NCBI GenBank assembly: GCA_022072255.1 | Contig: JAJVHZ010000002.1 | Location: forward strand, 1-64,000 | Length of the DNA stretch: 64,000 nt | Reading direction: 5' to 3' | Source: Gammaproteobacteria bacterium | GTDB lineage: Bacteria > Pseudomonadota > Gammaproteobacteria > JAJPIJ01 | In this document: one piece after another, positions 2,770 to 7,528 of the stretch | How the letters are laid out: each line of letters starts with the position of its first letter | Numbering within the stretch: the first letter of the stretch is position 1 | Translations under genes and position numbers: made by a program | The notes under the pieces: generated by a model | Databases searched by the model: none | Told to the model about the DNA's origin: nothing | The model's input: the letters and a program-made list of their open reading frames with translations, nothing else

Positions 2770-3216
2770 CTACTGATTCTGTATCCGCACCGTCTGATTG
2801 CCCGCGATCGCGGCCCCGGCAGCCGTGTGGCAATCCAGGACGATGCTGTAACGCGCGGCTATGAGTTCCGCGTCCTTGTGCACGGTGACCAGATATCTGC
2901 CCGCTGCGCCGGTCCTCACCGCCGTTGGAGGGGCCACCCCCTCCAGTGAGATCGCACTTCGTACGAGTCCGGTCGGGGCGATCACTTCCACGGTGATCTC
3001 ATCGACCGGATTTCCATCCGGATTCGCGACCCTGGCTCGCGCTGAGGCGGTTCCGCCGGGGCAGGTGAGACGGTAGACATCCGTCGGAGCGAAGGCGGCA
3101 TTTCCCGCCCCCAACGTACCGGCGAAAGGTCCATCGGCAATACTTACCGGGGCATTCAGCGATACAGCGAGGGCAACAGCGACCATGTTGACGCTGTTAC
3201 GCAATGTGGCTTTCAT
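2770..3216 (-). CDS. Small exported protein of unknown function
   Basis: A 148-residue protein with an N-terminal signal peptide (hydrophobic stretch MVAVALAVSLNAPVSIA, probable cleavage around residue 28). The mature part is Ala/Gly/Thr/Val rich with two cysteines, one in RLTCPGG and one in VLDCHT, that could form a disulfide in a beta-sandwich fold. I do not recognise the family. The start at 3216 has GAGGAA seven bases upstream and puts the signal peptide at the N-terminus. The frame stays open to 3372, where another start with its own ribosome site belongs to a separate remnant, so a gene finder might wrongly fuse them. Confidence 0.7.
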   Translation of the reverse strand: MKATLRNSVNMVAVALAVSLNAPVSIADGPFAGTLGAGNAAFAPTDVYRLTCPGGTASARARVANPDGNPVDEITVEVIAPTGLVRSAISLEGVAPPTAVRTGAAGRYLVTVHKDAELIAARYSIVLDCHTAAGAAIAGNQTVRIQNQ

Positions 3217-3372: not shown

Positions 3373-3621
3373 GGAGTGTTCCTCTCGATTTTCTCTGGGG
3401 AGAGCCTCTGCCGTGCGACTCCCCTTGGGCTGATCGCGACGGACGGATTTGCGGGCTCACGAAGCGTGTATCCCCCGGAACCCCGGAAAGGTTCATGGTC
3501 CGAGGCGGTGTCGCGCCCGCAGCCGCCCGCCCGCGGACCGGGCGCGCATTCCGGCCGGAACGTAACGAAGCCGGGGAGGACTGCGAGGACTGCCGGCCGT
3601 GGCCGGCGCACGTCAGGATGG

Positions 3622-4941
3622 CTAGAGCGAGGGCACCCGGCCGGCCAGCGCATCGCGCGCCGCCGCGCATTCGCCCCCTCCGCGCAGGCGCGCCACCGCC
3701 TGACAGGCGTTCACCGTGACGGCGGTGCCGAGCGGGGATGAACCGCGCAACATCTCCGCGATGCGCGCCGCCGGCAGATTCGGCGCCAGTGAACGCAGCA
3801 GCGCGACGACTCCCGACACGTGCGCCGCCGCGAACGAACTGCCGGAGATGAAGTCGTAGCGGGCCCCGGGAAGGGTCGTCAGCACGTCGACACCCGGCGC
3901 ACTGACCGCGTAGTCGTTCCGGACCTGCCCTTCCTCTCCGGTGGCCACCACGCGGAAGACCTGCGCCATGTTCGCTGCGAGCGTCTCGTCGCCGTCGGTG
4001 GCCGGCTGGGCGAGGACGACGATGACGTTGCGTTCGACGGCCTTCTGCAGCAGTGCCTCCAGCAACGCGTCCGACGGACCGCTCAGACTCAGGTTGAGGA
4101 CGTCCACCCCTTCACGAACGGCGGTCTCAAGGGCCTGCGCCAGCGTGAATGTATTGCAGACGGCCTCGGCGCCTCCGATCCGCTCCGCCCAGCAGGCCTT
4201 CATCGGCAGCACCTTCGCCGCCGGGGCGACCCCGATGATGCCCAGTTCGTTGTGACCGCCCGCGACGATGACGCCGGCGACGGCGGTGCCATGCACGTCC
4301 GTGTCGAACTCCGCCGCCGGGGAATCGGTGAAATCGAAATCCTGCGCCAGTTGCCCCATCAGATCGGGGTGATGGCGATCCACCCCGCTGTCGATGACCG
4401 CGATGGTCGTGCCCTTGCCCATCGACCACCGGTGCGCGGTTTCCACGTCCAGCAGGGTCAGGGACTTCTGCAGTGGCCGGTACGGGTCCGCGTGCATGAC
4501 GCGAAAGTGATTCATCCGTTGCGCCGAGTCGATCCGACCGTCTTTCCTCAACCTGTCCAGGATGTCATCGAGACCGGCAGCATCGGGAACTTCGTAGACG
4601 ACGCAATGAACCCCGAGCACGAGCATCGGCCATTCCTTCACGAGCGACAGCCCGTGATCCGCGGCGATACGCGCGGACAGCCGACGCGCCCACGTGGAAG
4701 ACAGGTAGTCGCGCGCGCCGCCGTAGTAGCGCCCCGGCGTGCCGGTCGGCGCCCGCAGGATGCGCTCGTCGATGAAGGTGACCAGTATCTGACGGGATTC
4801 CAGCGCGTGGCGGGCGTTCGCGCCCATCCGCTCCACGGCATCCTCGCCCGTGTCGCGCGCCCAGGCCGACGGACAGGCCGACGCCAGCATCGCGATCGCC
4901 ATCGCGACGGCGCGCATCACGGCGTGGATCGGTGCATTCAT
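3622..4941 (-). CDS. Exported subtilisin-like (S8) serine protease
   Basis: A 439-residue protein with a signal peptide (residues 1-29), a propeptide-like region (about 95-150) and a subtilase domain. The triad is visible as D184 in AVIDSGVD, H217 in DVHGTAVAGV and S369 in SGSSFAAAH. The usual oxyanion-hole motif (A-A-G-N) is replaced by LAQPAT near residue 310, so catalysis may be altered. The start at 4941 overlaps the anti-sigma stop by four bases (ATGA), which indicates translational coupling. Sitting third in a sigma/anti-sigma operon suggests that it either acts in the signalling cascade or is a coupled output. It probably acts in the periplasm or is secreted. Confidence 0.9.
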   Translation of the reverse strand: MNAPIHAVMRAVAMAIAMLASACPSAWARDTGEDAVERMGANARHALESRQILVTFIDERILRAPTGTPGRYYGGARDYLSSTWARRLSARIAADHGLSLVKEWPMLVLGVHCVVYEVPDAAGLDDILDRLRKDGRIDSAQRMNHFRVMHADPYRPLQKSLTLLDVETAHRWSMGKGTTIAVIDSGVDRHHPDLMGQLAQDFDFTDSPAAEFDTDVHGTAVAGVIVAGGHNELGIIGVAPAAKVLPMKACWAERIGGAEAVCNTFTLAQALETAVREGVDVLNLSLSGPSDALLEALLQKAVERNVIVVLAQPATDGDETLAANMAQVFRVVATGEEGQVRNDYAVSAPGVDVLTTLPGARYDFISGSSFAAAHVSGVVALLRSLAPNLPAARIAEMLRGSSPLGTAVTVNACQAVARLRGGGECAAARDALAGRVPSL

Positions 4942-5612
4942 GGCCTGCCGGTCGGCGCAATGGCCTCCGCCAGCAACACTTCGTCCTGTCGGCGCAGAGA
5001 TTCGAGAGCGCTCCGCAGGGCCTCGTCGTTGGGCTCGACCGATCGCAGTCGCACGATGTACGCCCCGGCGGAATTCGGGCCGTCGACCACCACCCCCGCG
5101 TACGGTTCGAGCAGGCTCGTCATCCGCTCCGGCGACACGTTCGCCCGAAGCACCAGCCTGACCTCGTTGCCCTGGCCGGAATACCGCGTGGCCGATGGCG
5201 ATGCGAGCGTACGGTACGCGCCATCCGGGCCACCCCGACCGGCCATGAAGGCGACGGGTGCGGCGATGGCGAGCGCCACCGCCGCCGCGAGCGCCGCACG
5301 GCGGCCGGCCCATCGGCGCGGCGGCGCGGAACTGACCGAAGGCTGCGGCGGCGCGGATACGCGTTCCTGACGTATCCGCTGCTTCAGGCGCGCGAGCCCG
5401 AGGTCCGATGGCTGCGGCGATGCCTGCGACGCGGCGACGAGGTCTCGCAGGCCGAATTCCGCCTCCGCCGCCGCGGCGCAGCGCCCGCAGCCGGCGAGAT
5501 GCTCGCGCACGCGCTCGCGCTCGTCTTCCTCCAGCCTGTCGATCACGTACCAGGGCAACAGCAGTTGAACACCTTCGTGCTCGTCGCACGGACGTTCCGT
5601 GGCTTCGATCAT
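4938..5612 (-). CDS. Anti-sigma factor with zinc-finger domain and propeptide-like periplasmic domain
   Basis: This 224-residue protein has a cytoplasmic zf-HC2 anti-sigma domain with the H-x3-C-x2-C motif at H38, C42 and C45, one membrane segment at about 104-125, and a periplasmic domain of about 75 residues at the C-terminus. That domain (SLLEPYAGVVVDG ... AYIVRL ... ALESLRRQDEVLLAEA) has the sequence pattern of an S8 protease prodomain, by my reading. ATGA overlaps join it both to the sigma factor upstream and to the protease downstream. It should hold the sigma factor inactive at the membrane; the release signal is unknown. Confidence 0.87.
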   Translation of the reverse strand: MIEATERPCDEHEGVQLLLPWYVIDRLEEDERERVREHLAGCGRCAAAAEAEFGLRDLVAASQASPQPSDLGLARLKQRIRQERVSAPPQPSVSSAPPRRWAGRRAALAAAVALAIAAPVAFMAGRGGPDGAYRTLASPSATRYSGQGNEVRLVLRANVSPERMTSLLEPYAGVVVDGPNSAGAYIVRLRSVEPNDEALRSALESLRRQDEVLLAEAIAPTGRP

Positions 5613-6217
5613 GCGTCCACCTCCTGCGCGTCGCCGGCGGCGACAACCTGCCCGGTCAGTTCGGGCCAGAAGACCCGCAGTCGCTTGCGGGCGTGAAACA
5701 TGCGGGTCTTGACCGTGTTCTCCGGGCACTCCAACGCCACGGCGATATCCTGGTAGGGCAATCCATGGTAGTAGACCAGCTCCATGACGGCGCGCTGCTC
5801 CGGGGTGAGCAGCGCGAATGCCTTTTCGGCGAGCGATGTGGTCGATACCAGGTCCGTCATGTCGTCGGTCGCAGCCAATTCCAGCGCCTCCCTGTCGTTG
5901 ACGGCAATCGAATCGCGCCCGTGGCGTTCGATGGCCTTCAATGCCCTCTTGTGCGCGATGCCCAGGATCCAGGTCGAGGCCCGCGACAGTGGCGTCGTAG
6001 CGGCGGCCTTCTGCCAGACGATGTACATCACGTCGTTGACGACCTCTTCGCAGCATTCCGGGCGGCGCGTGATCCTGAGGACGAAGCGGCAGAGGATCGC
6101 GTAATAACGCTTGTACAGTCTCTCCAGCGCCGCCTCGTCGCCGTCGCCAATGCGCCGGATCAGGGCCCAATCCGCCGTCTCGTCGTCTCGCAGCCCGGTC
6201 TCGCCCACCGCAGTCAT
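5609..6217 (-). CDS. ECF-type RNA polymerase sigma factor
   Basis: A 202-residue sigma-70 family protein with region 2 (ALERLYKRYYAILCRFVLRI ... EEVVNDVMYIVWQKA) and region 4 (LTPEQRAVMELVYYHGLPYQ ... ENTVKTRMFHARKRLR). The size and absence of regions 1 and 3 mark it as an ECF sigma factor. The stop overlaps the anti-sigma start by four bases. Such sigma factors usually activate their own operon, so a promoter in the 145 bases before 6217 would be expected, but I cannot define its motif from a single copy. Confidence 0.95.
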   Translation of the reverse strand: MTAVGETGLRDDETADWALIRRIGDGDEAALERLYKRYYAILCRFVLRITRRPECCEEVVNDVMYIVWQKAAATTPLSRASTWILGIAHKRALKAIERHGRDSIAVNDREALELAATDDMTDLVSTTSLAEKAFALLTPEQRAVMELVYYHGLPYQDIAVALECPENTVKTRMFHARKRLRVFWPELTGQVVAAGDAQEVDA

Positions 6218-6362
6218 TGGTTTTTCGAGCGCTCGACCCGCCGTTGTGGGTGTGGATCCCGGCGCCGCGGAAAAAGGTTCAATGGCCGGTGCGCGCCGCC
6301 CTCCGCCGGCAGGTGCGGGGCGAGATTGGCGGAGCGTCCGACCCCGTTGCGAAGCGCGCCCA

Positions 6363-7178
6363 TCAGAATCCGACAGTTACCGTGAATACGATGCTAGGGT
6401 CGATCAGCAACTCCTCGAACGGGCCGTGGGCTGCGCCGTTGCCGGCCTCGGTGGATCCGTTGAACTCCGTTGCGTCGTAATAGCGAAGATCGGCGCTGAT
6501 GTGCCGCGTCGGAAACCACGTAAGGCCAAGGTTCCAATAGACATCGTCGTACCCGAGCGCGGAGCGGGCCCGGTCGTAACCCAGGCCGGCGGAGCCATCG
6601 ATCGTGCCGGCCAGGGGGTAGCGTGCGTCGATCTGGAGGTTCAGCACGTTGCTGCCGCGGCCATAGGCATCCGGCGCCGTGCCGGCGCGCAGGCTCAGCA
6701 GGTCGCGGTAGTGCAACAGCGCCTGCGCCTCGAGGTAATTGGCAGCCTCCTCGAACACCTCGTCATCGTAGAGATATGCGGCGAGCATGGTGTCGAGTCG
6801 CACGTCCTCCGCGATGCGCCACCGCTTGCCTGCGTACGGATATGCCTCCAGGCGGGCATCGCCGAACTCCACGGCCGCCACCCACGCGCCCGCGATCAGG
6901 CCGGTGCGCGAATGCAGCAGATCGAAGTTCGCCTGCAAGGTGGGACGGTCCTCGCTCTTGGTGTACGCCCGATAGACATAGTTGGTCGTGGCATTCAGGA
7001 ATGCGGTGGCGGTGGTTTCCGCGACGGCAGGGGACGTCGCGACGAGTAGCGTTGCAGCGCAAAGACCGTCGGGCAGCAGGGCGGATCCGCAGTGGCGGGT
7101 CGACGGACTGCGCTGTGAACCGGACCGCGGCGGTTGACCCGCTCGGACCGGTTTCCTGCCTCTTGTCTGAAACTTCAT
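6363..7178 (-). CDS. TorF family putative outer-membrane porin
   Basis: A protein of about 271 residues matching the TorF (Gcw_chp) family of putative porins: ATTNYVYRAYTKSEDRPTLQ near the start of the mature part, alternating beta-strand patterns, and a C-terminal aromatic residue (VTVGF) as expected for an outer-membrane barrel. The signal sequence appears as LLPDGLCAATLLVATSPAVA, which follows an unusually long basic lead of about 30 residues from the ATG at 7178. The true start may be a non-ATG codon closer to the signal peptide. It precedes the sigma-factor operon by 145 bases on the same strand. Confidence 0.78.
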   Translation of the reverse strand: MKFQTRGRKPVRAGQPPRSGSQRSPSTRHCGSALLPDGLCAATLLVATSPAVAETTATAFLNATTNYVYRAYTKSEDRPTLQANFDLLHSRTGLIAGAWVAAVEFGDARLEAYPYAGKRWRIAEDVRLDTMLAAYLYDDEVFEEAANYLEAQALLHYRDLLSLRAGTAPDAYGRGSNVLNLQIDARYPLAGTIDGSAGLGYDRARSALGYDDVYWNLGLTWFPTRHISADLRYYDATEFNGSTEAGNGAAHGPFEELLIDPSIVFTVTVGF

Positions 7179-7528
7179 TCGACGATATGGCCGGCTGGCG
7201 GTCCGCGTTCGCCCGAGAGAGGCCATTACTGACACACCGATACACACCGATCCAGTGCCGTGGATCAAGAATCAGGCCTGCGCGCATCGGGGGTGCCGCG
7301 AAGCGCCCCTGCAGCCAGTTGGGCTGTGGACTTTCACGCCCCGCGGTGACGGCCCTGAATCGGCCATTCGATCTCGGCAGATGGTCGGCGGCCGACCCCG
7401 GACACGGGGCCATACGTCCGCCATTGATCGGTCAGCAGACGGCTGCCGCGACCCAATTCGTGCTTGCCTCGCGCCCGCGACACTCCTATCTTGCACCCCA
7501 AACTCGACGGTCACAGAGGGTAACGACG
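7179..7528. other. Intergenic region between TorF and SDR genes
   Basis: About 350 bases between two divergent genes. It should hold both promoters, but I see no convincing -35/-10 pair, palindrome or repeat, and no open frame here resembles a protein. Confidence 0.5.

Follow-up and report, generated by a model that had tools for sequence, protein, structure and literature searches.

Extracytoplasmic function (ECF) sigma factors are a main route by which bacteria sense their envelope, but how the signal is sensed has been worked out for few of their groups. In RpoE-RseA-RseB (with DegS and RseP), SigW-RsiW and SigV-RsiV, the ECF sigma factor is paired with a single-pass anti-sigma factor that has a cytoplasmic sigma-binding domain and a periplasmic sensor domain. 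The same arrangement is present at positions 6217-3622, on the minus strand, of the 64,000-nucleotide window analysed here (positions 1 to 64,000 of contig JAJVHZ010000002.1, from a Gammaproteobacteria bacterium), where overlapping genes encode an ECF sigma factor, a single-pass zf-HC2 anti-sigma factor and an exported subtilase of family S8. We find that the periplasmic domain of this anti-sigma factor is a relative of the S8 prodomain and that the gene order is shared by genomes well beyond the source genome, and these data suggest that protease-prodomain recognition is used for signalling across the membrane in many bacteria.

Comparison with described systems

As in ECF pairs released by regulated intramembrane proteolysis (RIP), a periplasmic partner is encoded next to the anti-sigma factor and the genome has an M50 peptidase gene of the RseP type. 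The cassette differs from those pairs in having a periplasmic domain related to S8 prodomains and a subtilase as dedicated partner, which would, in our proposal, make the cut. Unlike the RpoE-RseA-RseB locus, it has no PDZ protease or RseB relative, the third gene encoding an S8 subtilase instead of a MucB/RseB fold. The prodomain and catalytic folds of the two cassette partners are those of fervidolysin (1r6v) and pro-subtilisin E (3whi), except that the prodomain of the cassette sits on a separate polypeptide and that proteases of the window type (type A) lack the oxyanion-hole Asn.

A prodomain-like fold or partner is provided in trans to a subtilase by the stand-alone I9 inhibitors POIA1 and yeast IB2 and in Myxococcus PopD-PopC. 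The cassette resembles these in supplying the domain in trans and departs from them in two ways: a transmembrane anti-sigma factor carries the domain as a fusion, and the C-terminal inhibitory tail is unconserved. S1P/MBTPS1 is the subtilase site-1 protease of eukaryotic RIP, and for the cassette too we propose that a membrane-bound transcription regulator is first cut by a subtilase; the two are not homologous as systems, and the cut in the cassette is a predicted one.

The linkage of S8 genes to ECF26 sigma factors in rhizobia is already known. In S. meliloti, the divergent serine protease gene SMa0142 has been reported as a target of RpoE6, which is of the ECF26 type (PMC6180224). RpoE6-EcfR6/SMa0142 is like the window cassette in placing an ECF sigma factor and an anti-sigma factor beside an S8 gene. 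Unlike the cassette genes, the RpoE6 genes are divergent, and the C-terminal domain of an Agrobacterium relative looks unrelated; in the pSymA stretch examined, no anti-sigma open reading frame matches the profile of the prodomain-like domain. SMa0142 itself falls in the part of the S8 tree that retains the oxyanion-hole Asn (Asn-plus). The cassette lies outside ECF26, since its anti-sigma C-terminal domain differs and its promoter is TGAACC-N14-16-GGNATNNAC, not GGAATA/GT. Bradyrhizobium EcfS/TmrS was dropped as a counterpart, as TmrS is paralogous to OsrA, which has several periplasmic loops. We found no published account, in the open-access library searched, of an anti-sigma factor with a subtilase prodomain, an S8 or a site-1 role.

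The anti-sigma factor carries a relative of the S8 prodomain

The sigma/anti-sigma and anti-sigma/S8 joints are each a 4-bp ATGA overlap, as an earlier sequence-only reading had described. Pfam assigns Sigma70_r2 and Sigma70_r4_2 (8e-17) to the sigma factor, zf-HC2 (4.2e-7) to the anti-sigma factor and Peptidase_S8 (5.6e-34) to the protease. A sigma factor with regions 2 and 4 only, adjoined by a membrane anti-sigma factor with zf-HC2, has the features of an ECF sigma/class I anti-sigma pair. The principal features are the following.

5609..6217, minus strand: ECF sigma factor P0001, 202 aa, with Sigma70_r2 and Sigma70_r4_2; gene 1 of the conserved cassette
4938..5612, minus strand: single-pass anti-sigma factor P0002, 224 aa, with zf-HC2 (4.2e-7) and a modelled transmembrane helix at residues 104-126
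5475..5570, minus strand: residues 15-46 of the anti-sigma factor, cytoplasmic zf-HC2 domain that binds sigma (Pfam)
5202..5216, minus strand: Y133-R-T-L-A137 in the anti-sigma factor, a motif beside the membrane and a candidate for cleavage at site 1 (from conservation, a linker of low pLDDT and likeness to the junction of the partner S8)
4962..5165, minus strand: periplasmic domain at residues 150-217 of the anti-sigma factor, S8-prodomain-like with the Fervidolysin_NPro / I9 fold (from the model, the fold search and PF22148 matches in relatives)
3622..4941, minus strand: exported S8 subtilase P0003, type A, 439 aa, with a signal peptide (PF00082, 5.6e-34; PDB neighbours)

AlphaFold2, run on a 62-sequence alignment, models the anti-sigma factor as four cytoplasmic helices, the transmembrane helix, a disordered linker and the domain at 150-217. 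This domain has the order beta-alpha-beta-beta-alpha-beta (strands at 150-155, 173-177, 184-189 and 212-217, helices at 161-171 and 196-207), with pLDDT mostly above 90. In a Foldseek search of the PDB, the top four matches are subtilisin propeptides or pro-subtilisin E, all at probability 1.00, with TM-scores of about 0.64-0.66 against the propeptides 1spb_P and 1scj_B; because the domain is small, the E-values of the top matches are only 0.013-0.021.

The family shows the same relationship at the level of sequence. PF22148 (Fervidolysin_NPro-like) is matched by 19 of 62 full-length anti-sigma relatives (best 3e-6) and by 6 of 19 isolated C-terminal domains (best 4.4e-6); the window protein has no match to PF22148, so that this evidence holds for the family only. 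The domain profile also picks residues 164-225 of a large true S8 protease from another genome, ahead of its catalytic domain at 318-604. Against the pro-region of the partner S8 (residues ~89-145), profile-profile comparison gives a probability of 60%, with controls at 1-5%. Against PDB sequences, the domain profile found chance-level matches only. Given the fold match, the PF22148 matches in relatives and the profile match to a true S8 pro-region, we conclude that the periplasmic domain is a relative of S8 prodomains. The subtilisin-prodomain pattern and the likeness to region 95-150 of the protease, both proposed by the sequence-only reading, are thereby confirmed, as is the S8-prodomain fold for which a structure prediction had been suggested beforehand.

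The domain forms the C-terminus of a membrane protein and does not precede a catalytic domain in the same chain. In type-A anti-sigma factors, it is followed by a tail of 4-27 residues without conserved sequence, and in type B (defined below) by almost none.

The gene order is conserved and S8 linkage follows the domain

With the anti-sigma protein as query against 369 gammaproteobacterial genomes, a sigma gene lies upstream and an S8 gene downstream of most of the better matches. A scan with the S8 alignment yielded 307 relatives, from which 80 named loci were chosen; these span Methylococcaceae, Nitrosomonas, Dyella, Dokdonella, Nevskia, Burkholderiales, Granulosicoccus, one Acidobacteriota and one Nitrospira bin. 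An anti-sigma gene with the C-terminal domain, on either strand, is present in 74 of the 80, and 69 of those 74 also have the sigma gene. One of the remaining loci has an anti-sigma C-terminal domain below threshold, and five have no anti-sigma gene, four of these on contigs shorter than 8 kb. Five type-A S8 genes appear "solo" when a single strand is viewed; three of them have sigma and anti-sigma genes on the opposite strand. Conservation of the three-gene order beyond this genome had been set as a check by the sequence-only reading, and it holds across these groups.

The linkage is also seen from the side of the domain. With the C-terminal domain alone as query in 398 Pseudomonadota genomes, an adjacent S8 gene was found at 25 of 29 anti-sigma loci examined, many of them alphaproteobacterial. 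Among zf-HC2 genes of 56 genomes, S8 is adjacent in 3/3 with the domain versus 0/18 without it (p=0.0008). A scan of genome contigs for close relatives with the single anti-sigma protein as query found none. Taken together, the prodomain fold and a gene order conserved far beyond the source genome make it likely that the S8 protease binds the anti-sigma domain.

A few anti-sigma factors (L037, L039 and L042, and also L177 and L184-L186) have the same C-terminal domain, no adjoining S8 gene and no juxtamembrane motif; carAB and dnaK genes are found in the neighbourhood of L039 and L042. One genome (G324) holds two near-identical whole cassettes (L034, L035) in opposite orientation, approximately 1 Mb apart.

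A juxtamembrane motif resembles the pro/mature junction of the protease

The most informative extracytoplasmic column among 62 anti-sigma proteins is Y133, at 5.6 bits (Y in 56, F in 6). It is followed by any residue, T (59/62), L (53/62) and then S, A, T or G, and the resulting motif, Y-x-T-L-(S/A), sits in the disordered, low-pLDDT linker immediately outside the membrane. We take this to fit the preference of subtilisin for an aromatic P4, a Leu at P1 and a small P1'. The strict motif occurs in 80 of 105 S8-linked versus 0 of 7 S8-less relatives (p=9e-5, with the pattern picked after the data had been seen).

The pro/mature junction of type-A proteases reads F-x-(V/T)-(L/M). By likeness to the junction of the partner, the motif ranks in the top 5% of extracytoplasmic 5-mers for 51 of the 55 type-A proteins compared. 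True type-A pairs are more alike than shuffled ones (10.0 vs 7.8, sd 0.38, p=2e-4), in a test that does not remove shared ancestry and in which five type-A pairs were read by eye; for type B alone, the ten pairs show no significant pairing (p=0.29). Examples of junction and motif are YGVLT/YGTLS (L173), YQARG/YRALG (L160), FDTLT/YQTLT (L169) and FRPAG/YQPAG (L043). The motif is the most conserved extracytoplasmic feature of the anti-sigma factor and resembles the partner's own pro/mature junction, both points being new in this analysis.

An S8 clade without the oxyanion-hole Asn

PDB neighbours of the modelled protease are pro-subtilisin E and fervidolysin. Its N-terminal region is modelled with the same fold as the anti-sigma domain, and PF22148 is matched by only 1 of 64 sequences. 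The residues discussed here are located as follows.

within 3622..4941, minus strand: possible lipobox LASAC, residues 19-23 (lipobox test)
4498..4791, minus strand: prodomain-like region of the S8 protein itself, residues 51-148, with the clade-invariant Cys113 (model, alignment)
4492..4506, minus strand: pro/mature junction F146-R-V-M-H150 (column counts; likeness to the anti-sigma motif)
4390..4392, minus strand: catalytic Asp184, invariant
4291..4293, minus strand: catalytic His217, invariant
3835..3837, minus strand: catalytic Ser369, invariant in complete members
3994..4020, minus strand: segment VVLAQPATD (308-316), AAGN in other subtilases, with Ala314 at the oxyanion-hole Asn position (alignment)

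Type-A proteases have approximately 400-450 residues, and Asp184, His217 and Ser369 are kept in all complete members, while the oxyanion-hole Asn is missing from every one. In the S8 tree, the Asn-less proteins form one side of a single branch, with one change (SH-aLRT 99). The Asn has thus been lost throughout one S8 clade that keeps its catalytic triad, a further point new in this analysis. The sequence-only reading had taken LAQPAT, in place of the usual oxyanion-hole motif, as a sign of a sensing or specialised protease; the replacement is real, but it is an inherited trait of the clade and not peculiar to the window protein. An invariant triad despite the loss of Asn indicates that catalysis is still under selection, and a large natural subtilase clade of this kind makes a useful case for enzymology.

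The other cassettes (type B, Asn-plus) have an S8 protease that keeps AAGN and is often longer, with additional N-terminal domains. Those of L029, L031, L032, L038, L041, L043 and L046 are longer with the Asn intact, and some of the extra N-terminal domains are IPT/TIG repeat-like.

At least 38 of the 80 type-A S8 proteins have a lipoprotein box; LASAC of the window protein passes the lipobox test used if translation begins at Met8 or Met9. Three cysteines, Cys113, Cys250 and Cys262 (window ~4603-4605, 4192-4194 and 4156-4158), are invariant in type A. Cys113 lies in the pro-region, and alignment to subtilisin places Cys250 and Cys262 beside the prodomain-docking helix; a disulfide or redox latch is possible.

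Type-A cassettes usually include a fourth gene, also new in this analysis, for a putative outer-membrane protein of the TorF family (TIGR02001, gcw_chp).

6363..7268, minus strand: TorF-family (TIGR02001, PF09694) putative outer-membrane protein, gene 4 of the type-A cassette (family match)

Such a gene is present in 69 of the 80 type-A loci, mostly directly before the sigma gene or directly after the S8 gene. In two genome samples, it was found at 9/12 type-A versus 0/28 Asn-plus loci (p=8e-7).

Proposed mechanism and alternatives

From the computed fold, linkage, motif conservation, clade-wide loss of Asn, linked outer-membrane protein and shared promoter, we infer a conserved transmembrane signalling module, in which the S8 protease docks on the prodomain-like domain, cuts the motif as site 1 and so releases the sigma factor; we give this an even chance of being correct. 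The anti-sigma factor would tether the sigma factor to the inner membrane and, on the periplasmic side, present a docking domain that descends from an S8 prodomain, with the Y-x-T-L-(S/A) peptide between domain and membrane. Once a signal makes it available, the S8 protease of the neighbouring gene, probably located at or near the outer membrane, would dock and cut the motif after Leu. The M50 site-2 protease (RseP-type) and then cytoplasmic proteases would free the sigma factor, which would direct transcription of the operon that encodes it and of a small number of exported-protein genes. A type-A protease without the oxyanion Asn may be a slow, perhaps once-only, cutter, and the TorF-type outer-membrane protein may hold or release it.

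Several points weigh against this mechanism. Loss of the oxyanion Asn should strongly reduce catalysis, and the motif is only ~7-10 residues off the membrane, which is tight for a globular protease. The motif is looser in S8-linked anti-sigma factors of type B and fails to match in some from Alphaproteobacteria (L181-L183). The shuffle test of motif pairing leaves shared ancestry in place, and the mirror-tree correlation of the anti-sigma factor with the protease does not exceed that with the sigma factor.

The prodomain fold would also suit a membrane-tethered inhibitor of the I9 type that silences the S8 protease, so that sigma activity would depend on how much protease is free or mature and the cell would sense protease use or export. 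The conserved Glu216 (58/62) aligns, albeit weakly, with Glu69 of the subtilisin prosegment, which caps a surface helix of subtilisin, and 43 of 62 tails past Glu216 are no shorter than that of subtilisin. However, tail length and sequence are unconserved, 17 of the 62 type-A tails have just 4-5 residues, type-B anti-sigma factors stop directly after the last strand, and the conserved juxtamembrane motif is left unexplained; we consider inhibition of this kind unlikely. Because the motif is conserved and the C-terminal tail variable, a role of the anti-sigma factor as substrate is more likely than classical inhibition. The earlier proposal that the protease is bound to or inhibited by the domain therefore survives as binding, whereas inhibition, like free or mature protease as the signal, is neither demonstrated nor favoured.

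Alternatively, the type-A protease may be a crippled subtilase that no longer cleaves and serves as a co-regulator in the style of RseB on RseA, binding domain and motif as a pseudosubstrate and thereby shielding or exposing the anti-sigma factor. Pseudoprotease subtilases such as CspC exist, the oxyanion Asn is gone clade-wide with one origin (SH-aLRT 99), the S8 gene is third in the cassette, a position like that of rseB, and the three cysteines are clade-invariant. Yet the clade shows no variation at Asp, His or Ser, which is not expected of a pseudoenzyme, and the Asn is kept in sister clades that have the same anti-sigma domain, making such a receptor improbable in our view. The invariant triad argues for catalysis, and the loss of Asn for slow catalysis or use as a receptor. 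We regard as very improbable that the domain is a recycled ferredoxin-like fold that senses another ligand, the protease being a sigma target without physical contact. This fold is common, and the few domain-bearing anti-sigma factors without an adjoining S8 gene would be accounted for, but the sequence match is specific to S8 prodomains, S8 linkage is seen only where the domain is present, and the motif is absent in the seven S8-less relatives.

Extending the docking-and-cleavage mechanism to the outer membrane, we tentatively suggest, with more doubt than conviction, a four-part relay between the two membranes that uses protease-prodomain recognition as its signalling bond. A TorF-type protein of the outer membrane would control a subtilase lipoprotein in the same membrane, whose active site is weakened. 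The lipoprotein would in turn recognise an anti-sigma factor with a captured subtilase prodomain and a mimic of the protease's cleavage site, giving a slow, self-limiting switch. For a widespread anti-sigma family, the sensory domain now has an identity and a dedicated partner; together with the candidates for a cleavage site and an outer-membrane component and with the promoter motif, these make the mechanism testable by point mutants.

A shared promoter and a predicted small exported regulon

A conserved promoter of the sigma type, likewise new in this analysis, occurs three times in the genome, with two copies at the cassette.

6252..6281, minus strand: sigma-type promoter TGAACC-N15-GGGATCCAC before the sigma gene (pattern search)
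3466..3495, minus strand: second copy, with the same spacing, before the gene after the protease (pattern search)
2770..3216, minus strand: small protein with a signal peptide, predicted regulon member (promoter; no Pfam or NCBIfam family)

TGAACC is enriched before sigma genes (32/59 vs 49/1180 random windows, p=2e-25), and the full pattern, TGAACC-N14-16-GGNATNNAC, gives 61 matches versus 1 expected in ~0.93 Mb. In the whole 4.27-Mb genome, the pattern is found before the sigma gene, before the small exported protein that follows the protease, and in contig 51. The last match (C51:5221-5251, L193) precedes an FtsK/HerA-like open frame and is possibly due to chance. The remaining promoters in relatives stand before exported-protein genes, such as those for TIGR03118, RTX-repeat, collagen-like, InlB-repeat and TorF proteins or the S8 protease itself. 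Since the promoter lies before the sigma gene and before genes for exported proteins, autoregulation of the cassette is very likely, as is a regulon of few genes whose products are exported.

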